Of a stretch of DNA of 11,321 nucleotides, positions 23 through 11,321 are shown piece after piece. This DNA comes from Candidatus Poribacteria bacterium (GTDB lineage: Bacteria; Abyssobacteria; SURF-5), in assembly GCA_016215705.1 (NCBI GenBank), contig JACRIR010000137.1:1-11321 (forward strand). The letters are read 5' to 3'. Within the stretch, counting starts at the first letter, position 1. Each line of letters starts with the position of its first letter. The notes beneath the pieces are model-generated. The model ran no database searches, was not told the origin of the DNA, and worked only from the letters and a program-made list of their open reading frames with translations. The position numbers and the translations under genes were made by a program.

Positions 23-1474
23 CTATCGCGGTGGGACGGGGTTGTGACAGGCGAAGAAGTGGCCAGACGTGTGTTCGATGAGACCGGGGATGACGACGCT
101 GCAGACGGGGAGGGCGTTGAAGCAGCGGGGATGGAAGCTGCAACCGGGCGGAGGGTTAATGGGTGAAGGAACGTCGCCGGGCAGGATTATCCGTTTGCGT
201 TTGCGTTCAGGGTCCGGGATTGGGATTGCCGACATGAGGGCGACAGTGTAGGGATGCCTGGGGCTGCGATATAGCTCTTCGCTCGAGGCAAGCTCTGCGA
301 TTTTGCCAAGATACATGACGGCGACGCGGTCGCTGATGTTCTCGACCACTCTGAGATCGTGGGCTATAAAGAGGTACGCGAGCCCATATTCCTTTTGCAG
401 GTCTTTGAGGAGATTTATGACCTGGGCCTGGATGGAAACATCGAGAGCGGAGACCGGCTCATCGCAGACTATGAATCGAGGTTTGAGGGCGAGGGCGCGG
501 GCAATGCCGATTCTCTGCCGCTGTCCGCCGCTGAACTCGTGGGGATAGCGGTCGAGGTGTTCTTCCGAGAGACCAACTCGGTTCAGGAGTTGGATTACGC
601 GCTCGCGGCGCTCCTTTCCTTCGGCGAGTTTGTGGACGGTCATAGGCTCGCCAATGATATTCTCGACGGTCATGCGAGGGTTGAGCGAACCGAAGGGGTC
701 CTGAAATATTACTTGCATCTCTTTGCGCATGACGCGCATTTCGCTGTCGGAGAGTAGTTCGAGGGGCAGGCCGTCGAAGATGACCCTCCCTTCGGTGAGC
801 GGAATAAGACGCAGAATGCATCGCCCGAGAGTTGTTTTGCCGCACCCGCTTTCGCCGACGAGCCCGAGTGTTTCCGCCGGTTTGATGAACAGACTGATAT
901 CGTCAACCGCCTTGACATGGGCGCGCACTTGCGAGAAAACTCCGCTGCGGACGGGGAAGTATCTCTTGAGATTATTCACGCGCAGGAGAAAGCCGTCGAG
1001 TGGTTCGAGGAGGCGTTGCTTTTCATATCGACTGCGTGTCATCTCGACCGTCATGGTCTGCTTTTTCACAGGAGGTCTCAGCGCTACATAGAGAATCTGG
1101 AAAACGAGCCACGGGGCGAATGCCGGAAGCGAGAGAACGAGGGCCGCTGCGGGCCACAAAGTTGTGTTCATTTGCCTGCCCTTGCAGTCATCATAAGTCC
1201 AAAAGGCGATGTAGCCCGGAATTGAGAAGAATGCGCAGAGAGCGGGCCAGAAGACCGGATGATGTTCTCTTTCGATTGCCTGGTAACGGGCGTAATAGCA
1301 GAGAGGACCGCCGGGCGCGCCGAAAAGCGAGCCGATGATGAAGGCGGCGGCGGCCCATTTGAGAGCCGGGCGACGATTGCGGCGCGCGTCGGCGTACACC
1401 CAGTAGGCGAGGGTCAGCGACAGGGCCGAGTTGGCGGCGAGAAGCCAAGCGAGTAGAGTCCAGTTTGAGGTCAT
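23..1474 (-). CDS. dppF: DppF/OppF-like peptide ABC transporter ATPase with N-terminal four-helix membrane domain
   Basis: ATP-hydrolysing subunit of a peptide-type ABC importer, 483 codons; DppF/OppF proteins are usually about 320-340. Residues 165-483 form the ATPase: Walker A GESGCGKT (207-214), Q-loop near 258, signature FSGGQRQR (314-321), Walker B ending CDEP with D-loop SALD (337-345), switch His372. The C-terminal oligopeptide-transporter domain has four Cys (445, 451, 458, 476), the spacing known to hold a [4Fe-4S] cluster in some DppD proteins. Residues 1-135 are extra: four predicted helices (about 7-27, 41-61, 73-93, 107-131) built as two similar halves. The first ATG is used because the frame runs through without a stop. 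Internal ATGs at 1054 and 1042 have no convincing Shine-Dalgarno, but the ATG at 1474 also has only a weak GAGAG about 15 bases upstream, so the real start is uncertain. It is the last gene of the operon, 128 bases after dppD. The family call is firm; the membrane domain's role is unknown. Confidence 0.93.
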
Positions 1475-1602: not shown

Positions 1603-2565
1603 TCAGACCTTCCAGCAGCGGACGAGGTGTCCGGTTTCGATTTCGCGGAGTTCGATATCCATTTGTTTGCATTTTTGCTCCATCAGGTTGCAGCGCGGAT
1701 GGAAGCGGCATCCGACGGGATAATTTGAAGGGTCGGGCACGAAGCCTTCGATTGCCTGGAGGTGTTCGCGTTTGTCGCCGAGTTTTGGCAAAGAGCCGAA
1801 CAGTCCGACAGTGTAGGGATGTTTGGGATTCGTGAACAGCCTGCGTGTCGTTGTGTATTCCATGATCTGGCCGGCATACATGACGGCGACGTCGTCGGTA
1901 GTCTCCGCAATAACGCCGAGATCGTGCGTAATGAGGAGAGTCGACATTTTGAATTCGTCGCGCAGTTCCATGAGGAGTTCGAGGATTTGGGCCTGGATGG
2001 TGACATCGAGCGCGGTAGTAGGCTCGTCGGCAATGAGGAGTTTTGGGTGACAGCAGATGGCCATTGCTATCATGATGCGCTGTTTCATGCCGCCGGACAG
2101 TTGATGTGGATAATCGTTGTAGCGTTGCTCGGGCGATGGGATTTTCACCTTGTGGAGGAAGTCTATGGTGATTGACTTTGCCTCGGCCCGCGATACGCGG
2201 CGATGCAGGCGGAGCGCCTCGGAAATCTGATAGCCGATGGTGAACACCGGGTTGAGCGAGGTCATGGGTTCCTGGAAAATCATTCCTATGTCATTGCCTC
2301 GGACTGAGCGCATTTGAGATTCCGGAAGTTTGAGAAGGTCGCGTCCCTCGAATACGATTTCTCCGCCGACGATTCTGCCGGGGGGAGAAGGGATGAGGCG
2401 CAGGATGGAGAGGGCAGTGACGCTTTTGCCGCAGCCGCTTTCGCCTACGAGGCCGAGGGTTCTCCCCTGCCCTATCGAGAAACTGATTCCGTCGACGGCG
2501 CGCGCGATTTTGGAGTCCGAGAAGAAGTGAGTCTTCAACTCGCGAACGTCAAGGATAATATCCAA
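1603..2565 (-). CDS. dppD: DppD/OppD-like peptide ABC transporter ATPase
   Basis: First ATPase of the peptide importer, 320 residues, the normal family length. Cytoplasmic, expected to pair with the DppF-like ATPase under the two permeases. Walker A GESGCGKS (41-48), Q-loop FQEP (97-100), signature LSGGMKQR (156-163), Walker B LLIADEP with D-loop TALD (176-187), switch His214. The C-terminal peptide-transporter domain (about 230-320) carries Cys286, 292, 299 and 317, a C-x5-C-x6-C-x17-C pattern matching the [4Fe-4S] ligands described for some DppD proteins and identical in spacing to the DppF-like partner. The start is TTG: GGAGAG lies 9 bases upstream at 2575-2580, inside the end of dppC, and no ATG or GTG fits better. 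The gene begins 3 bases after the dppC stop, implying translational coupling. Substrate is unknown; nickel and antimicrobial-peptide importers share the family. Confidence 0.95.
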
Positions 2566-2568
2566 GAG

Positions 2569-3690
2569 TTACTTCTCTCCTTCGAAGGCGAGGCGCGGGT
2601 CAAAGGCGTCGCGCAGGCCGTCGCCCAGGAAATTGAATGCCATGACTGCGATGAAGATGAACATGCCCGGTATCAGAATCCACGGGTGAAATCTTATTTC
2701 GGAGATATTCATGGCCTCGCTGAGCAGATTTCCCCAACTCGCGTAGGGTTCTTGAATGCCCACGCCTATGAGGCTCAGGGCCGACTCACCCAAGATGTAG
2801 GCCGGGATGCTGAGAGTGACAGCGACAATAACATAAGAGAGCGTGTTCGGGAGAATGTATCGGAGTATTATCCGGAGCGAGTTTTCGCCGGAAGAGATTG
2901 CCGCGGTCACGAACTCCTTTTCTCTAATCGAGAGAACCATGCCCCGGATGACTCTGGCGAGGCCGGCCCAACCGATGAAACTCATGATGAGTACGATCAT
3001 GAAGTAGACTTCGATTGACGAGAGGCCGGGCGGAAAGGCGGCGCGAAGGGCGAGCATGAGGTAGAAGCCCGGGATCATCATGACCATTTCGCACAGGCGC
3101 ATGAGAGCGTTGTCGGTGCGCCCGCCAAAGAAACCGGAGATTCCGCCAACGATCATGCCGACGAAAAATGAGACAATGACGCCCACGAATCCGATAGAGA
3201 GCGACACCCGGCTGCCGTAGAGGATGCGTGAGAAGAGGTCGCGGCCCCGGTAGTCAGCGCCGAGCAGGTAGAGACGGGCGGGCTCGTCGACTCCGAACAG
3301 CCGAGTGTTCATGGGGATGAATCCGAGCAGTCGGTGTTCTGCGCCGTGAACGAAGAATTTCAGGGGAAACGGCCTGGTTGAGTCCTGCACGTAGACCCGG
3401 TTGTAATACTCATCGAAGGTGTAGGAGTACCTGTACACAAACGGGCGCAGGTGGAGATTGCCTGATTCGTCGACGAAATTCAGCCGCATCAGCGGGCAGT
3501 AGGACAGTTCGCGGCGCTCGTCGTCGAAGCTATAGGGCGCGACGAAGTCGGCGAACAGGGCGACTGCATAGAAGAATGCGAGAACCCAAAGGCTGAATAT
3601 TGCCAGCTTGTGGCGGCGCAGGCGGCGAAGCGCCATTCCCGTTTGACTGACAGACGGCGGTCCCGATTCATTTTGCATGTTTTGGCTCAT
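2569..3690 (-). CDS. dppC: DppC/OppC-like peptide ABC transporter permease with long first extracytoplasmic loop
   Basis: Second inner-membrane permease of the importer, 373 residues against about 300 for E. coli DppC. Helix 1 spans about 29-48. The core begins with LLGADYRGRDLFSRILYGSR (142-161), the family's conserved start of the transport domain, followed by about five helices. The EAA loop that docks the ATPase lies at about 259-282, and the family ending GDGLRDAFDPR at 356-366. The excess length is a polar, aromatic-rich segment between helix 1 and the core (about 55-135), predicted outside the cytoplasm. Longer DppC/YejE-type permeases are known, so this is probably a subfamily trait. 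Its ATG overlaps the dppB stop (ATGA at 3690-3687), and an AGGT about 10 bases upstream may serve as ribosome-binding site. Confidence 0.94.
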   Translation of the reverse strand: MSQNMQNESGPPSVSQTGMALRRLRRHKLAIFSLWVLAFFYAVALFADFVAPYSFDDERRELSYCPLMRLNFVDESGNLHLRPFVYRYSYTFDEYYNRVYVQDSTRPFPLKFFVHGAEHRLLGFIPMNTRLFGVDEPARLYLLGADYRGRDLFSRILYGSRVSLSIGFVGVIVSFFVGMIVGGISGFFGGRTDNALMRLCEMVMMIPGFYLMLALRAAFPPGLSSIEVYFMIVLIMSFIGWAGLARVIRGMVLSIREKEFVTAAISSGENSLRIILRYILPNTLSYVIVAVTLSIPAYILGESALSLIGVGIQEPYASWGNLLSEAMNISEIRFHPWILIPGMFIFIAVMAFNFLGDGLRDAFDPRLAFEGEK

Positions 3691-4655
3691 TGATATGACA
3701 CCTGCGGGTCGGCAATTGCGAGGAGCACGTCTGCGACGAGGTTTCCGACAACGAGGAGCAATCCGCCTATGAGCATGCTGCCCATGACGAGAAAGAGGTC
3801 CTGACTCCTCACGGCTTCGAGCATTACCTGTCCCAGGCCCGGGTAGCCGCAGACTATTTCGAGCAGAGCGGCGCCGCTCAGCAGACTTGACAACTCGAAT
3901 CCGAATATCGTGACCATAGGATTGATTGCGTTGCGGAGGGCATGGCGATATATGACCCTGCTTTCCGGGAGTCCTTTGGCGCGGGCCGTCATTACGTATT
4001 GCATCCGGAGCACCTCGAGCATATTGCCTCGCATTATTCTTTGGAGACTTGCGAGACCGCCGATGGAAAGGACTACAGTCGGTATGACCAAATGCAGGGC
4101 GACGTCAGCGAGTTTGGCCATTCGGGAAAATTCGTAATAGTTGGGGGATTTCAGTCCGCCGATGGGAAGCAGGCCGAACTCAGCCCCCAGGAAGTAAAGC
4201 ATCAACAGGGCAAGGAAAAAGCCCGGCAGGGACATTCCAATGAAAGAGATGGCGGAGAAGATTTTGTCGCCTAAGGAGTATTGGTGGACTGCGCAATACA
4301 CTCCGATGGGAATGGCGACGAGCCAAGTTATCAGAATGCTCGATATGGAAAGCAGCAGTGTATTAAGGAGACGCGTCCCTATGACGGTGGCGACCGGCTG
4401 CTTTTGGGAAATCGAAAAACCCAAATCGAGGTGGATAAGGTTTCGGAGCCAGTAGACGTATTGAACCAGCGGCGGCTTGTCCATGTGGTACTGAGCCTGG
4501 AGTCGCCGGATGGTTTCGTCGGAGATTTGAGGGTTCATTCTCAGGGTGGCGAAATAGTCGCCTGGCGCGAGTTGAATGAACATGAACGCCACGAATGACA
4601 TGGCGAGAAGAAGCGGCAGGAGGATAAGCAGGCGGCGTAAGATGTAAGCGCTCAC
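3687..4655 (-). CDS. dppB: DppB/OppB-like peptide ABC transporter permease
   Basis: First inner-membrane permease of the importer, 322 residues from the chosen start, typical for the family. The N-terminus MSAYILRRLLILLPLLLAMS is the usual DppB opening, with helix 1 at about 8-28. It is followed by the family motif APGDY (30-34), an extracytoplasmic segment, and five more helices. The EAA loop (YVMTARAKGLP ... RNAINP, 220-246) contacts an ATPase, and the C-terminus ends near ADPQV as in relatives. I chose GTG at 4655 because GGGG lies 7 bases upstream (4663-4666) and the protein then begins as relatives do. A TTG at 4673 would add six residues (MFWGTN). An upstream ATG at 4677 is in another frame and soon stops. 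The gene ends by overlapping dppC and follows dppA after 104 bases containing two hairpins. Confidence 0.95.
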   Translation of the reverse strand: MSAYILRRLLILLPLLLAMSFVAFMFIQLAPGDYFATLRMNPQISDETIRRLQAQYHMDKPPLVQYVYWLRNLIHLDLGFSISQKQPVATVIGTRLLNTLLLSISSILITWLVAIPIGVYCAVHQYSLGDKIFSAISFIGMSLPGFFLALLMLYFLGAEFGLLPIGGLKSPNYYEFSRMAKLADVALHLVIPTVVLSIGGLASLQRIMRGNMLEVLRMQYVMTARAKGLPESRVIYRHALRNAINPMVTIFGFELSSLLSGAALLEIVCGYPGLGQVMLEAVRSQDLFLVMGSMLIGGLLLVVGNLVADVLLAIADPQVSYQ

Positions 4656-4683
4656 ATTAGTGCCCCAAAACAAACATGATTGA

Positions 4684-4759: not shown

Positions 4760-6547
4760 TTACTTAATGAGATATATCTCCTCGATATTATGGAATGCAC
4801 CACCGAAAGGAGTCGGATAGAGGTTCCCGAACTTGTTCCGGACGGCGAAAATCGATTCGGGCATGACTGTAAAGATTACCGGAAGTTGTTCCGAGACGAT
4901 CAATTGCCATTCGTCGTAGAGCTTCTTGCGCTTGTCGCGATCGAGTTCCTGTACACCCAGGTCGAATGTTTCGTCCATTCGCGCTTCCCAAGTGGTTGCC
5001 GGTTTCTTTTGGCGCGGATACCACTCATGGAGCTGACCTGACGAGTGCCAGACATTCTTTCCGAAGTGCGGTTCTATTCCGCCGGTCAGTCCCAAGAGAA
5101 TGCACTCCCAATCGGCTGTCGAAGAGAGTTTATCGACAAGGTTATTGAACTCAAGCGCCGTGAAGCGAACGTGCATGCCGACTTCCTCGAGGTCCTTCCG
5201 GATCATGTCGGCTATTTTCACGCGAACGGTGTTCTCGGCGTTTGTGAACAGATTGAATTCAACTTTGTGGCCCTCGGGGTCCTCTATGTAGCCGTCGCCG
5301 TTCCGGTCTTTGAATCCTGCATCTGCGAGGATTTGCCGAGATTTTTCCGGATTGTAGTCATACTTTATCACGTTTGGGTTGTAGAAGAAACCGGCGCTGG
5401 GACTCATCGCAGAATGCTGAATGTATGCGAGGCCGTTCATCGCGAGGTCGATTATTGACTGCCGGTCGAGCGCGAGGGCGACCGCCTTGCGGAATTGAAG
5501 GTTAGCGAACCACTTCAGTTTGATCGGATCGACATAAGGTTTCCCGGTCTCCGGATTTTTTTCCGGGTTCTGGTTGAACACGATGAAGTTTGTGCCGAAG
5601 TCGGGGCCCGCCCGATAGATAGTGAAGTTTTTCTGTTTTTCGAGGGGTTTAAGAATCGGATAGTCAGACCCCCGGAGGCCGAAGTAGTCGCTCTCGCCGT
5701 CCTGGAATTTGAGTAGCGACACATCGATATTTGGAACAATGAGGATGATGATGCTGTCGAGATAGGGCAGGCGGTTGCCTGCGGAATCAGTGCGCCAGTA
5801 GTGCGGGTTGCGTTTCAGGACAACGCGTTGACTGGGCTCATAGTGATCGATCATGAAGGGGCCGGTACCCACTATTTCTTCCGGCTTCGAGTCGACGCCC
5901 CATGTGGAGTTGAAGGTTCCATCCCGGACGGATTTTTCCAGGATATGCTTCGGCAGGATTTCCTGAACAAGCCCTTGTAGAAAGGGAGCGAATTTGACGG
6001 GTGTCTTGAAGGTGACCGTCAGGTCGTTCACCTTTGTGACATCGAATTCCTTGCCCTCGATGGTGAACACGTCGCGACTGCTGGTCGGGATATCCTTGTT
6101 GTAAACAAGTTGGCGGTAAGTGAAGACCACGTCGTCCGCCGTGAGGGGTTTCCCATCATTCCACTTCACGCCTTCCCGCAAATGGATTGTCCATGTCAGG
6201 CCGTCGGGCGAAATATCCCAGCTTTTCGCCAGGGCAGGCTCCGGCTCGGCTGTTATCCCGGATACCCGCGTGAGTCCCTCGAATATATACTGCGTGATAG
6301 CAGTCGTTGAAGTTTCCTGCGCTATAATCGGGTTGAAGCTCTTCGGATTTGCGATGTTAGCGAGGACCAAGTTGCCGCCGGATGAGCCCACTTTTGGCTT
6401 ATAGTCGGCCGGAGTGACTATCATGGCAGGGGCTGGCGCGGGCTTTTGTGAAGCGGGCGTACCGCCGCTCTGTTTTTTGCCGCAGCCGAGAATCAGGCAT
6501 GTTAAGGTGAGGCCGAGGAGCGTGTTTGCAACTAAACGAAAGGTCAA
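4760..6547 (-). CDS. dppA: Peptide-binding lipoprotein of ABC importer (family 5 solute-binding protein)
   Basis: Extracytoplasmic ligand-binding subunit of the importer, 595 residues, within the family 5 range of about 500-600. The N-terminus has a lipoprotein signal: short Arg-containing start, hydrophobic core, lipobox LILGC with lipidated Cys22, then a flexible Gly/Ser/Ala/Pro linker to about residue 42. The mature protein has family 5 hallmarks: GLTWTIHLREGVKWNDGKPL (116-135) with ADDVVFTY next, then FRKAVALALDR in the middle of the protein, followed by NPEKSRQILADAGFKDRNGD. The start is TTG: GGAGG is 11 bases upstream (6559-6563), an in-frame TGA lies three codons upstream, and no ATG or GTG occurs before the lipobox. 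First gene of the dpp operon, possibly driven by the promoter at 6690-6717. The ligand could be di- or oligopeptides, but nickel, heme and sugar binders share this fold, so the symbol reflects operon position. Confidence 0.94.
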   Translation of the reverse strand: MTFRLVANTLLGLTLTCLILGCGKKQSGGTPASQKPAPAPAMIVTPADYKPKVGSSGGNLVLANIANPKSFNPIIAQETSTTAITQYIFEGLTRVSGITAEPEPALAKSWDISPDGLTWTIHLREGVKWNDGKPLTADDVVFTYRQLVYNKDIPTSSRDVFTIEGKEFDVTKVNDLTVTFKTPVKFAPFLQGLVQEILPKHILEKSVRDGTFNSTWGVDSKPEEIVGTGPFMIDHYEPSQRVVLKRNPHYWRTDSAGNRLPYLDSIIILIVPNIDVSLLKFQDGESDYFGLRGSDYPILKPLEKQKNFTIYRAGPDFGTNFIVFNQNPEKNPETGKPYVDPIKLKWFANLQFRKAVALALDRQSIIDLAMNGLAYIQHSAMSPSAGFFYNPNVIKYDYNPEKSRQILADAGFKDRNGDGYIEDPEGHKVEFNLFTNAENTVRVKIADMIRKDLEEVGMHVRFTALEFNNLVDKLSSTADWECILLGLTGGIEPHFGKNVWHSSGQLHEWYPRQKKPATTWEARMDETFDLGVQELDRDKRKKLYDEWQLIVSEQLPVIFTVMPESIFAVRNKFGNLYPTPFGGAFHNIEEIYLIK

Positions 6548-6882: not shown

Positions 6883-9654
6883 TCACCCACGCTTTTTCGA
6901 GCGTCCCGCACTTGCTTTCGATTTCTTGGCGGCAACCTTTGCCTTTTTTACAGTGGCACGCGCTGGTCGTTTCTTGGTTTTGGCCTTTTGCTTGTTGGCT
7001 TCTTCCTTTACTGCTGCCTGCGCGGCGGCTAAACGAGCGATTGGGACCCGATAAGGTGAACAGCTCACATAGTTGAGGCCTATTCTGTGGCAGAACTCCA
7101 CAGCGCTTGGTTCGCCGCCATGTTCGCCGCAGATACCGAGTTTAAGGTCTTTGCGGACGCTTCGGCCTTTGGCTGCTGCGATTTTCATGAGCTCGCCAAC
7201 GCCGACCTGATCCAGCACCTGGAAGGGGTCTTTTTCGAAGATGCCTTTCTTCAAGTAGTCATTGAGGAACATTCCGCTGTCGTCACGGCTGAACCCGTAG
7301 GTCATTTGTGTGAGGTCATTCGTGCCGAAGGAGAAGAATTCGGCTTCCTCGGCGATCTTGTCGGCGGTCAAAGCGCCACGCGGAACCTCGATCATTGTGC
7401 CGACTGTGTATTTGACCTTTATGCCTTGTTCTTTCATCACTTGAGTGGCCACTTCGATGGCGTCTTTCTTGAGCAGCCGAAGCTCCGTGACGTCGCCGAT
7501 AAGGGGGAGCATTATTTCGGGAATGACCTTGATTTTCTGTTTGGCCAATTCGCACGCTGCCTCTATGATGGCGCGAGTCTGCATCTTATAGATTTCCGGG
7601 AATGTTATGCCGAGGCGGCATCCGCGATGGCCAAGCATCGGGTTGAACTCTTTGAGGCTCTCGACCTTTTCGCGGAGCTTCTCGACCGGCACATTCATCT
7701 CAGCGGCAAGCGCCTCGATTTGAGCGCGTTCATGGGGCAGGAACTCGTGGAGCGGCGGGTCAAGGAGCCGGATGGTAACCGGCAGACCGGCCATTTCTCG
7801 GAAGATACCTATAAAATCGCCCTTTTGCATCGGCAGGAGCTTTGCCAGAGCGCGCTCGCGACTCGCTACGTTATCGGCAAGGATCATTTCACGCACTGCC
7901 ATGATGCGGTCGCCTTCGAAGAACATATGCTCGGTCCGGCAGAGTCCGATTCCCTCGGCCCCGAACCCTCTGGCCACTTTGGCGTCATTGGGGGTGTCGG
8001 CGTTAGTGCGGATATTGAGGCGCCGAGTTTCATCGGCCCATTTCATGAGTATTCCGAAATGGCCGCTGAGGCTGGGCATGACAGTTCTCACCTGGCCAAG
8101 CATAACTTCGCCTTTGCCACCGTCGAGCGAAATGAAATCACCCTCGTTGACAGAGAGGCTATCTACCGTGAATCTCCGGTTTGCGTAATCGACAACGAGG
8201 TCGCCACAGCCTGCGACGCAGCACTTCCCCATTCCCCTTGCCACAACCGCCGCATGCGAGGTCATGCCACCCCTTTGGGTGAGAATTCCCTGTGCGGCCG
8301 CCATACCACCGATATCCTCCGGAGAGGTTTCAATTCTCACGAGTATGACCTTTTCGCTCTGGCCCGCGAGCTCTTCCGCCCGGTCGGCGGTGAAGACGAC
8401 CTTGCCCGTGGCGGCTCCGGGTGAAGCCGGTAACCCGCGTGCGATGACTTTTTTCTCGGCGGAGGGATCGAATGTCGGGTGGAGGAGTTGATCGAGGTCG
8501 GCCGGCGGGACACGGCGAAGGGCTTCTTTCTTGGTGATAAGGCCTTCCTTCTTCATGTCTACGGCGATTCGAATAGCGGCAGTTGCCGTGCGCTTTCCCC
8601 TGCGCGTTTGCAGCATCCACAGTTTGCCTTTTTCTATGGTGAACTCGATATCCTGCATTTCCGTGAAGTGTTTCTCGAGCTTCTTGTAGATTACGGTGAG
8701 TTCTTTGTACACTTGCGGCATGAAATCTTCGAGGGAGACCAAGTTGGGATCAGTTTTGCCGACGTTGTTGATGGGTTGAGGAGTCCGTATGCCGGCAACG
8801 ACGTCTTCGCCCTGTGCGTTGGGCAGATACTCTCCATAGAAGCGTTTTTCGCCGGTGGCAGGGTCGCGAGTGAAAGCGACGCCGGTGGCGCAGTCGTTCC
8901 CCATGTTGCCGAAGACCATGGTTTGCACGTTGACGGCGGTTCCCCAATGTTCGGGTATATTATTCAGTTCCCGGTATTTTTTTGCGCGCTTGGTATTCCA
9001 CGACTCGAATACGGCGCCGATAGCTCCCCATAACTGCTTCATAGGCTCTTCGGGGAAATCCTGGCCTGTGTGCGTTTTGACCGCTTGTTTGAACTTTGCC
9101 GTCAGTTCTTTCCAGTCTTCGGCAGTCAGTTCCATATCCAGTTTTACATTTTTTTCCTTCTTTTTTGCTTCAATCAGGCCCTCGAACGCCTCGTCTTCGA
9201 CCCCCATTACCACGTTTCCGTACATTTGGACGAAGCGTCTATAGGCGTCATATGCGAAGCGTTCATTGCCTGTCTGTGTGATGATTCCTTGTAGTGTCCG
9301 AGCGTTCAGGCCGATGTTGAGGACAGTGTCCATCATTCCTGGCATCGAGACTCTGGCGCCGGAGCGTACCGACACAAGAAGGGGGTTGACGGGGTCGCCG
9401 TATTTGCGGCCCATAACCTTTTCGACCTTTGCCAGAGAGGATGCAACCTCTTCAGTGAGGCCTTTGGGGTAACGTTGATTATTCTCGTAGAATTCCGTGC
9501 AGACTTCGGTGGTGATTGTAAAACCTGCGGGGACAGGAACGGCTAGATTCGTCATTTCAGCAAGGTCTGCTCCCTTACCACCAAGCAGATTCCGCATTGC
9601 GCTGCTTCCTTCGGCTCTGTTGTTTCCGAAGAAGTATACTCTTTTCCTAGCCAC
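6883..9654 (-). CDS. ppdK: Pyruvate, phosphate dikinase with basic C-terminal tail
   Basis: Cytoplasmic enzyme interconverting pyruvate + ATP + phosphate and PEP + AMP + diphosphate (EC 2.7.9.1), serving gluconeogenesis or PPi-linked glycolysis. Residue numbers count from the ATG at 9660; subtract 2 for the chosen start. The N-terminal nucleotide-binding domain has KRVYFFG (6-12), GGKGADLAEM (27-36) and VSVRSGARVSMPGMMDTVLN (97-116). The swivelling phosphohistidine domain has TQRGGMTSHAAVVARGMGK (461-479) with catalytic His469. The C-terminal pyruvate-binding barrel has GLCRTEHMFF (572-581), MIEVPRGAL (756-764), FGTNDLTQMTYGFSRDD (778-794) and catalytic Cys844 in GICGEHGGE. All key residues are present. 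Family proteins usually end near PYRVPIARLAAAQAA; here about 40 more residues follow, 13 Lys and 4 Arg. GTG at 9654 is preferred because GGAGG lies 7 bases before it but only 1 base before the ATG at 9660. A promoter lies at 9717-9746. Confidence 0.96.
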   Translation of the reverse strand: MARKRVYFFGNNRAEGSSAMRNLLGGKGADLAEMTNLAVPVPAGFTITTEVCTEFYENNQRYPKGLTEEVASSLAKVEKVMGRKYGDPVNPLLVSVRSGARVSMPGMMDTVLNIGLNARTLQGIITQTGNERFAYDAYRRFVQMYGNVVMGVEDEAFEGLIEAKKKEKNVKLDMELTAEDWKELTAKFKQAVKTHTGQDFPEEPMKQLWGAIGAVFESWNTKRAKKYRELNNIPEHWGTAVNVQTMVFGNMGNDCATGVAFTRDPATGEKRFYGEYLPNAQGEDVVAGIRTPQPINNVGKTDPNLVSLEDFMPQVYKELTVIYKKLEKHFTEMQDIEFTIEKGKLWMLQTRRGKRTATAAIRIAVDMKKEGLITKKEALRRVPPADLDQLLHPTFDPSAEKKVIARGLPASPGAATGKVVFTADRAEELAGQSEKVILVRIETSPEDIGGMAAAQGILTQRGGMTSHAAVVARGMGKCCVAGCGDLVVDYANRRFTVDSLSVNEGDFISLDGGKGEVMLGQVRTVMPSLSGHFGILMKWADETRRLNIRTNADTPNDAKVARGFGAEGIGLCRTEHMFFEGDRIMAVREMILADNVASRERALAKLLPMQKGDFIGIFREMAGLPVTIRLLDPPLHEFLPHERAQIEALAAEMNVPVEKLREKVESLKEFNPMLGHRGCRLGITFPEIYKMQTRAIIEAACELAKQKIKVIPEIMLPLIGDVTELRLLKKDAIEVATQVMKEQGIKVKYTVGTMIEVPRGALTADKIAEEAEFFSFGTNDLTQMTYGFSRDDSGMFLNDYLKKGIFEKDPFQVLDQVGVGELMKIAAAKGRSVRKDLKLGICGEHGGEPSAVEFCHRIGLNYVSCSPYRVPIARLAAAQAAVKEEANKQKAKTKKRPARATVKKAKVAAKKSKASAGRSKKRG

Positions 9655-9661
9655 GGCCATT

Positions 9662-9779: not shown

Positions 9780-11321
9780 TCAGTAGTATTCGATACTCAT
9801 CGATTTGATGGAGAAGAGAGTCCCGACGTCTTGACTCGGGCGAAGAGCAAAGCGTCTTATTTCAGGATCATAAAGGGTCAGACCGTTCCGATAGAGAGGG
9901 ATTCTGTAACCATGAAATAGGCCGTCGGCGTCAGCGTAGAATGCTATCGACTTCGGGCCATCGTAGTTTGTGTCTTTTCGCGTGACCCAGAACAAGCGAA
10001 CGACGTCGCGGGTATTGGCCTTCTTCTTGAGCATCATCTCGAAAGTCACATACTTAATCGGTGGACCGATGCGAATGGGGGGCAGTTTGAGCATTGCCCA
10101 TTTGTCGGTGACAATGAAAAGAGGGTACGTCATGTTCGCGCCCCAAACGCGAGACATTCCCGCAGATATTTCGATAGTGGCTTGGTCGGTCCACTTCAGG
10201 AAATCGAAGGCGGGCGGGCGCGCGTCTGAGTCAAACTCGGGTGACTTCGCGGGAGTCAGCGAATACGATTCGGGATCGAAAGAAAGGAGCACGTACTGTG
10301 GGGAGGTCCAATCTTTTTCACGGCTGTTTTCCTTGTCCAGGTCAACAACGATATTAGGAGGCAAGAACGAAAGATTGCCTTCCACATTTTTCCTGTCATA
10401 AGCGAGGCCCATGGCCGTTGGAAACCCTGTGGCGAAGAGAGGCACACCTTTGTGTCCCCATGGGATTCCGGAAACATAGAAGCGGGTATAGGGCCGGAAA
10501 ACCGGGTATTCTGACCTTATTGTTTCCACAATTCTCTTTGTGATGGTTTGAGCGGCGAGCCATTGGCGATCATAATACTTGGTGAGCGCAAGAGCCGGAA
10601 TTACAAAAAAAACTGGAACGGCTATTCGGAAAAGTTTGTGTTTCCACCTATCCCCTACCCCACAGGCAATCATTGAAAGAATATAGCAAGAGCCGACGGA
10701 CGGCAAATATAGGAAACGCGACCAGTGTCGGAGTCCGATTGTGCGATAGGCGCCGATGACCGGAATTAGCGTGATAATCATTAAGATCAGGCAAAGGCCG
10801 ACTGCTCTCAGATCAATTGCGCGCCGCCAGGCCAGGATAACGACGGTAGCGGCGACTCCGATCAGCACCGAGGCCTGTATCATGGCTTGGTGCGAGAACT
10901 CCGGCGATATCGGCGCAAAAGAGAATGCAATTCCGCGCAGAAGGATGGCCGTAGCATCATCGAAGAGCATCGCGAAGTTGCTGAGATAGAGCGAGAAGAC
11001 GTCGTCACCAGCATCCGTCAAATATCCGATCCTCAGACGGAATACATATTTTGTCAGCAGGGCGACCAAAAAGATCACGGCCCAGAATGGAGTGTATTCG
11101 ATTACGCGCTTTCGCCAGGAGATGCTGATGGAGCGCAGCCGAACCAGAAAGGGGTCAAGCATGATGAGCGTCAGCGGAAGTGTGTAGACAAGTTCTTTGC
11201 AGAGAGTTCCCGCAACGTACCAGAGAAAAGAGGACAAGAAATACGTGGTGCGTCCGCGAATTCGATAGTATACGAAGAGGTTGAGGCTGAGTAAATAGAA
11301 GATGACGGCCCAGGAGTCGAA
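9780..11321 (-). CDS. Polytopic membrane protein, GT-C glycosyltransferase-like, 5' end outside window
   Basis: The frame is open to the window edge, so the N-terminus is missing; 513 codons plus stop are present. A TTG at 11237 is only an internal codon, because 28 sense codons with a hydrophobic stretch (SWAVIFYLLSLNLFVYY) precede it. The first about 245 residues hold roughly seven membrane helices. Two motifs recall TMTC-like or TPR-associated GT-C transferases using lipid-linked sugars: a loop-helix CKELVYTLPLTLIMLDP and RHWSRFLYLPSVGS. The last about 250 residues are soluble and β-rich in appearance. Near the end, KSIAFYADADGLFHGYRIPL ... IRRFALRP ... FSIKSMSIEY resembles β-sandwich domains often attached to surface-sugar enzymes. 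A role in modifying surface glycans or proteins is inference; the catalytic acidic residues usually near the N-terminus lie outside the window. The stop is followed by 119 bases before ppdK, with no clear terminator. Confidence 0.7.
   Translation of the reverse strand, partial: FDSWAVIFYLLSLNLFVYYRIRGRTTYFLSSFLWYVAGTLCKELVYTLPLTLIMLDPFLVRLRSISISWRKRVIEYTPFWAVIFLVALLTKYVFRLRIGYLTDAGDDVFSLYLSNFAMLFDDATAILLRGIAFSFAPISPEFSHQAMIQASVLIGVAATVVILAWRRAIDLRAVGLCLILMIITLIPVIGAYRTIGLRHWSRFLYLPSVGSCYILSMIACGVGDRWKHKLFRIAVPVFFVIPALALTKYYDRQWLAAQTITKRIVETIRSEYPVFRPYTRFYVSGIPWGHKGVPLFATGFPTAMGLAYDRKNVEGNLSFLPPNIVVDLDKENSREKDWTSPQYVLLSFDPESYSLTPAKSPEFDSDARPPAFDFLKWTDQATIEISAGMSRVWGANMTYPLFIVTDKWAMLKLPPIRIGPPIKYVTFEMMLKKKANTRDVVRLFWVTRKDTNYDGPKSIAFYADADGLFHGYRIPLYRNGLTLYDPEIRRFALRPSQDVGTLFSIKSMSIEYY

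Follow-up and report, generated by a model that had tools for sequence, protein, structure and literature searches.

ATPases of Dpp/Opp-type importers are regarded as peripheral subunits that are held solely by the coupling helices of the permeases. The dppF gene in the stretch of DNA analyzed here (11,321 nucleotides in all, referred to as the window) raises the question whether such an ATPase can itself be an integral membrane protein, or whether a small membrane gene and an ATPase gene merely appear joined. The window belongs to a genome of a little-known lineage of deep-subsurface bacteria. The order of genes on its minus strand is pyruvate phosphate dikinase, then dppA, dppB, dppC, dppD, and finally dppF, and the operon parts are the same as in E. 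coli Dpp. The coordinates are collected in Table 1. No stop codon separates the hydrophobic part of dppF from the ATPase in the 483-codon translation, in agreement with the sequence-only reading, which had placed about 135 hydrophobic residues in frame with a DppF-like ATPase; four hydrophobic windows fall within this N-terminal part. The range 1042-1474, which had been singled out as the unusual part of the gene, comprises codons 1-145 and ends with M145 (codon 145, at 1040-1042).

Table 1. Positions of the dppF fusion, its parts, the neighboring dpp genes and the orthologous fusions. Positions refer to the window unless preceded by a locus label.
Feature	Position	Strand	Description or basis
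dppF, membrane domain-ATPase fusion	1474..23	minus	483 aa, single open frame
N-terminal membrane domain, residues 1-134	1073..1474	minus	four hydrophobic helices; hydrophobicity, AlphaFold2
Helix 1, residues 2-32	1379..1471	minus	conserved W-V-x-A-D-A-R-R-N at end; AlphaFold2, hydrophobicity, conservation
Helix 2, residues 37-68	1271..1366	minus	break at conserved F-G-A-P; AlphaFold2, hydrophobicity, conservation
Helix 3, residues 75-99	1178..1252	minus	conserved T-Y-D-D-C at end; AlphaFold2, hydrophobicity, conservation
Helix 4, residues 106-132	1079..1159	minus	conserved LWP and PW breaks; AlphaFold2, hydrophobicity, conservation
Linker, residues 135-161 (~27 residues)	992..1072	minus	carries M141 and M145; three-genus alignment
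DppF/OppF ATPase, residues from 162 on	26..991	minus	PF00005, PF08352, PDB alignment
dppD, partner ATPase	1603..2565	minus	without membrane extension
dppC, permease	2569..3690	minus	OppC_N and BPD_transp_1; Pfam
dppB, permease	3687..4673	minus	BPD_transp_1; Pfam
dppA, lipoprotein-like peptide-binding protein	4760..6547	minus	SBP_bac_5; Pfam
Orthologous fusions	L012:5992-7437; L092:8219-9703		membrane part and ATPase in one frame

The ATPase part has the features of the DppF/OppF class. Pfam domains PF00005 (ABC_tran, residues 191-341, E = 1.1e-31) and PF08352 (oligo_HPY, residues 394-458, E = 1.2e-16) both match above cut-off, the Walker A motif GESGCGK is found at 836-856 together with the signature motif and DEP, the C-terminal oligo_HPY region carries four invariant cysteines (C445, C451, C458, and C476), and dppA, dppB, dppC, and dppD lie beside the gene. 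The best NCBIfam matches are OppF, with 400.5 bits against a cut-off of 540, and the dipeptide subfamily NF008453, with 395.6 bits against a cut-off of 408 and hence just below it; the matches cover nearly the complete profile length. In comparisons with the nearest solved relatives, E. coli DppF/DppBCDF (PDB 8z1v, 8z1w) and OppF (PDB 8z21), residues 162-476 match along the entire DppF/OppF chain. The E. coli chains begin about 10 residues ahead of the stretch matched from residue 162 onward and have no counterpart of the membrane domain or of most of the linker. The equivalents of the four cysteines in E. coli DppF bind a [4Fe-4S] cluster (PMC12136057); their spacing is 6, 7, and 17 in E. coli compared to 6, 7, and 18 here, where the cluster is predicted. 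With four hydrophobic helices in residues 1-134 that are conserved in the family, however, the protein is not a soluble subunit free of membrane helices, and we therefore class it as a variant rather than an ordinary member of DppF/OppF.

When 41 genomes were searched with residues 1-153, three matched: besides the window, the hits fell in two further genomes of its family, each representing another genus and each with the match within a long open frame. One hit is on contig QZKI01000027.1, from Candidatus Abyssobacteria SURF_17, and the other lies in the genome designated here G001. In both relatives the fused gene occupies the equivalent position of an orthologous dppABCDF operon; the other four genes, ordinary in the window, have aligned orthologues in both, in unchanged order. 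Identity across the three pairs of sequences is 61%, 53%, and 51% in the membrane part, 45-52% in the linker, and 83-85% in the ATPase. Codon changes among the three genera occur mostly at third positions, and dN/dS of the membrane part is about 0.17 or less, where the value of 0.17 comes from the one pair with unsaturated dS (dS is saturated in two of the three). This substitution pattern indicates that the membrane part is under purifying selection. Conservation of the frame and of the hydrophobic helices over three genera, with a bias in codon position and a low dN/dS, puts the fusion beyond chance. The data exclude separate genes for the two parts in each of the three genomes. The source genome is fragmented (5.47 Mb in 270 contigs), which would favor a frame accident, a sequencing error or a misassembly joining two genes, but the same junction occurs independently in three genera, including QZKI01000027.1, with selection on both sides of it. 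We consider such an artefact extremely improbable, and it is practically certain that the gene is a genuine, family-wide fusion rather than an accident of frame or assembly. Of the two possibilities raised by the sequence-only reading, an ATPase made an integral membrane protein by a real fusion is thus supported by all three genera compared, whereas a separate small gene fused only by an open frame or an error is contradicted by the conserved junction and by selection. The same fusion, which that reading proposed to look for in related genomes, exists in two further genera, and in no relative did we find the two parts split into separate genes.

A fused gene could still give rise to two products, a small membrane protein and a soluble ATPase, through internal translation or through cleavage. 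ATG 1474 is the earliest possible start in the dppF frame of the window. The linker contains M141 and M145, a GAG triplet immediately precedes M145, and the window and G001 share a GTG at residue 136, all of which would be consistent with internal initiation. However, there is no Shine-Dalgarno-like stretch upstream of M141 and nothing more than the bare GAG upstream of M145, which bears out the earlier statement that a good internal ribosome-binding site is lacking. In the alignment, the residue equivalent to Met141 is Ile and that equivalent to Met145 is Ser in both relatives, so that neither has a start codon at these positions, and an internal start at M141 or M145 is rejected. GTG136 is absent from SURF_17, whose earliest possible start codon (ATG, GTG or TTG) past helix 4 is TTG167, situated in the first strand of the ATPase. 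Because M141 and M145 are not conserved and GTG136 is missing in SURF_17, a family-wide internal start is excluded, and we regard two products as very improbable. Separate genes in close relatives, or an N-terminus at residue 141 or 145, had been named as observations that would speak against the fusion; the relatives have neither separate genes nor start codons at these residues. Initiation can instead be placed at the membrane domain, as the start codon of dppF (8219) overlaps the stop codon of dppD (8220-8222) as ATGA in G001, and dppF of SURF_17 begins with GTG 4 bases past the dppD stop. Automatic trimming of start sites to the "normal" length of DppF would delete a real domain. The gap between dppD and dppF in the window measures 128 bases and includes a tandem repeat of the 7-base unit ATTTTGG (1515-1545, 4.4 copies, period 7), which looks like an insertion in the lineage of the window because dppD and dppF overlap or lie 4 bases apart in the relatives.

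According to a PF08352 search, each of the three genomes encodes a single DppD and a single DppF. This Dpp/Opp-type importer is the only one found in these genomes, and since the fused protein is the sole DppF, no soluble DppF is left in them. A lineage whose only DppF is an integral membrane protein represents a natural experiment on how much freedom of movement the ATPase needs. Outside the three genera the fusion appears to be rare. No additional fused copy turned up when a profile built from the three membrane domains was run against sets of 386 and 385 genomes, which overlap to a large extent; a search of a plasmid collection gave no match, and among 80 DppF-like loci from named genomes only that of SURF_17 carries a hydrophobic extension. 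An apparent extension in a Bacillus locus (L059) is an overlap artefact, as the frame in front of the real dppF (328 aa) overlaps dppD. We also fetched 20 unusually long DppF-type frames from among the best-listed matches of 290 genomes, and none of these 20 has a hydrophobic window ahead of the ATPase. A full-text literature search found no description of such a fusion, which is weak evidence of absence. We conclude that a well-known importer exists here as a genuine variant that is specific to this lineage.

Among the nearest known systems are also type I importer subunits annotated in Actinobacteria that unite permease and ATPase in one chain. These likewise tie an importer ATPase covalently to membrane helices. 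In those chains, however, it is the permease itself (BPD_transp_1) that supplies the membrane part, whereas DppB and DppC are separate and complete in the operon described here, and the extra domain has no BPD_transp_1 match.

The four-helix membrane domain described by the sequence-only reading stands as far as the helices are concerned. Four hydrophobic windows of 19 residues (residues 5-23, 41-59, 74-92, and 110-128) have Kyte-Doolittle means of 1.44-1.91, and a full-length AlphaFold2 model built on three sequences only places four helices here with pLDDT of about 72-86, the last three of them kinked. A model of the domain alone is poor (mean pLDDT 56), yet it places the same helices. The simple arrangement of four crossings is at odds with the distribution of charge. 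The loop ADARRNRR carries 4-5 positive charges (K+R) that are kept in all three genera. If the chain crosses four times and the ATPase is cytoplasmic, the N-terminus would lie inside and this loop in the periplasm, contrary to the positive-inside rule. Either a specific contact may keep the RRNRR loop outside, or one of the hydrophobic segments may not cross the membrane; helix 4, given its conserved proline breaks, may be a candidate re-entrant segment. The number of crossings or the orientation may therefore not be fixed by the simple four-helix model.

The attached helices strongly imply that the ATPase is anchored in the membrane. In E. coli DppBCDF, DppF docks on DppC via a coupling helix (PMC12136057). 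We propose that the fused domain would remain attached to the DppF of a type I Dpp/Opp peptide importer and would reside in the inner membrane, next to the permease subunit on which DppF docks, which would be DppC as in E. coli. There it would anchor the ATPase and would stabilize or bias assembly and the DppC-DppF contact, and the importer would hold more helices than the usual twelve. The domain would also make specific contacts, most likely with DppC and possibly with lipid. The three-sequence alignment has 63 invariant columns out of 149; invariance extends to 15 of 24 charged or polar residues, as against 24 of 66 hydrophobic ones (p = 0.03 by Fisher's exact test, a small test chosen post hoc). 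This higher conservation at charged and polar positions favors specific contacts over a bare anchor. A simple membrane tether, which would keep DppF near the permeases with no specific contacts or signaling, would account for the variable linker and for the faster evolution of the membrane part relative to the ATPase, but such an anchor needs hydrophobicity alone and would not explain the invariant columns or the excess conservation of polar and charged residues; we consider it unlikely. The mechanism with anchoring, assembly or coupling at DppC, and specific contacts, taken as a whole, seems to us slightly favored over its being wrong in some part. It is a more tentative suggestion, one that we hold with clearly less than even confidence, that the domain could be a new accessory module of type I importers, specific to Abyssobacteria, which packs on the permease core to give about 16 helices and whose polar contacts set coupling or assembly.

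Another possibility is that the domain senses a ligand, the state of the lipid or a partner protein, or otherwise regulates the ATPase, as regulatory domains do in certain other importer ATPases. The invariant polar residues at the helix ends would fit such a role, as would the weak similarity between the second hairpin and a free-standing hairpin that carries zinc ribbons (L098, described below). On the other hand, Pfam, NCBIfam, and PDB searches revealed no recognizable ligand-binding fold, and a sensory or regulatory role appears decidedly unlikely.

Searches of Pfam and NCBIfam place the membrane domain in no family above chance; it is an unannotated membrane domain family. Matches to DUF6518, EBP, DUF2834, and similar Pfam families are far under cut-off, and no two of the three relatives hit the same family. 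A permease remnant was rejected, as residues 1-153 have no BPD_transp_1 match at E up to 1, and so was a PLDc_N hairpin (PF13396), which has no match in the domain; the sole PF13396 match in genome G000 lies on another contig, C53. Sequence matches in the PDB (CBL, cytochrome bo3) are due to chance (E at least 0.077), and fold searches with the low-confidence models return generic helical bundles and designed repeats, with a best Z of 5.7 over 52 residues and Foldseek E of at least 2. The two halves of the domain share a similar motif (WVYADARRN...W), and the registers of the motif agree, but the hhalign probability is 10, so that an internal duplication of two hairpins is suggestive at most. 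A DNA motif pattern for the hairpin found nothing in the three genomes.

The search for stand-alone homologues, also proposed as a check, left two weak leads. Stand-alone four-helix proteins (L097, L108, L109, and L111) with an [IVL]QDGHA...IP.fN.YW core and the domain match each other weakly in both directions over helices 2-3: A1 found L097 at E = 1.9e-4, and L097 found the G002 fusion, alone within that genome, at 5e-4. These proteins have no ATPase attached, and the hhalign probability is 21 over 36 columns; kinship with them may be taken as a weak lead. The second is the L098 membrane hairpin with the pattern Y.DA..RG, which resembles the second hairpin of the domain (E = 0.0011 with AFYVYNDAKVRGSKSLNW compared) but is a single hairpin, fused to a double zinc ribbon instead of an ATPase. 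L097:834-2085 encodes two adjoining membrane proteins with the IQDGHA...IP.fN.YW core and without an above-cut-off Pfam name, with relatives in G033 and G035, and the stand-alone protein at L098:1420-1926 combines the Y.DA..RG hairpin, again without an above-cut-off Pfam name, with double zinc ribbons.

Several other features of the window were observed. DppC has about 120 residues between OppC_N (residues 15-57) and BPD_transp_1 (from residue 178), probably a periplasmic insert, and its entire length aligns with both relatives. The segment 9780-11321 of the minus strand encodes a large membrane protein of at least 513 aa, open at the edge of the window, for which positions 9783-11237 gave no Pfam match at E up to 0.001. 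The pyruvate phosphate dikinase (6883-9660, minus strand) ends in a C-terminal tail of about 40 residues that is rich in Lys, Arg, and Ala (KQKAKTKKRPARATVKKAKVAAKKSKASAGRSKKRG) and histone-like in composition; its orthologues in G001 and SURF_17 have basic tails too, of different sequence.
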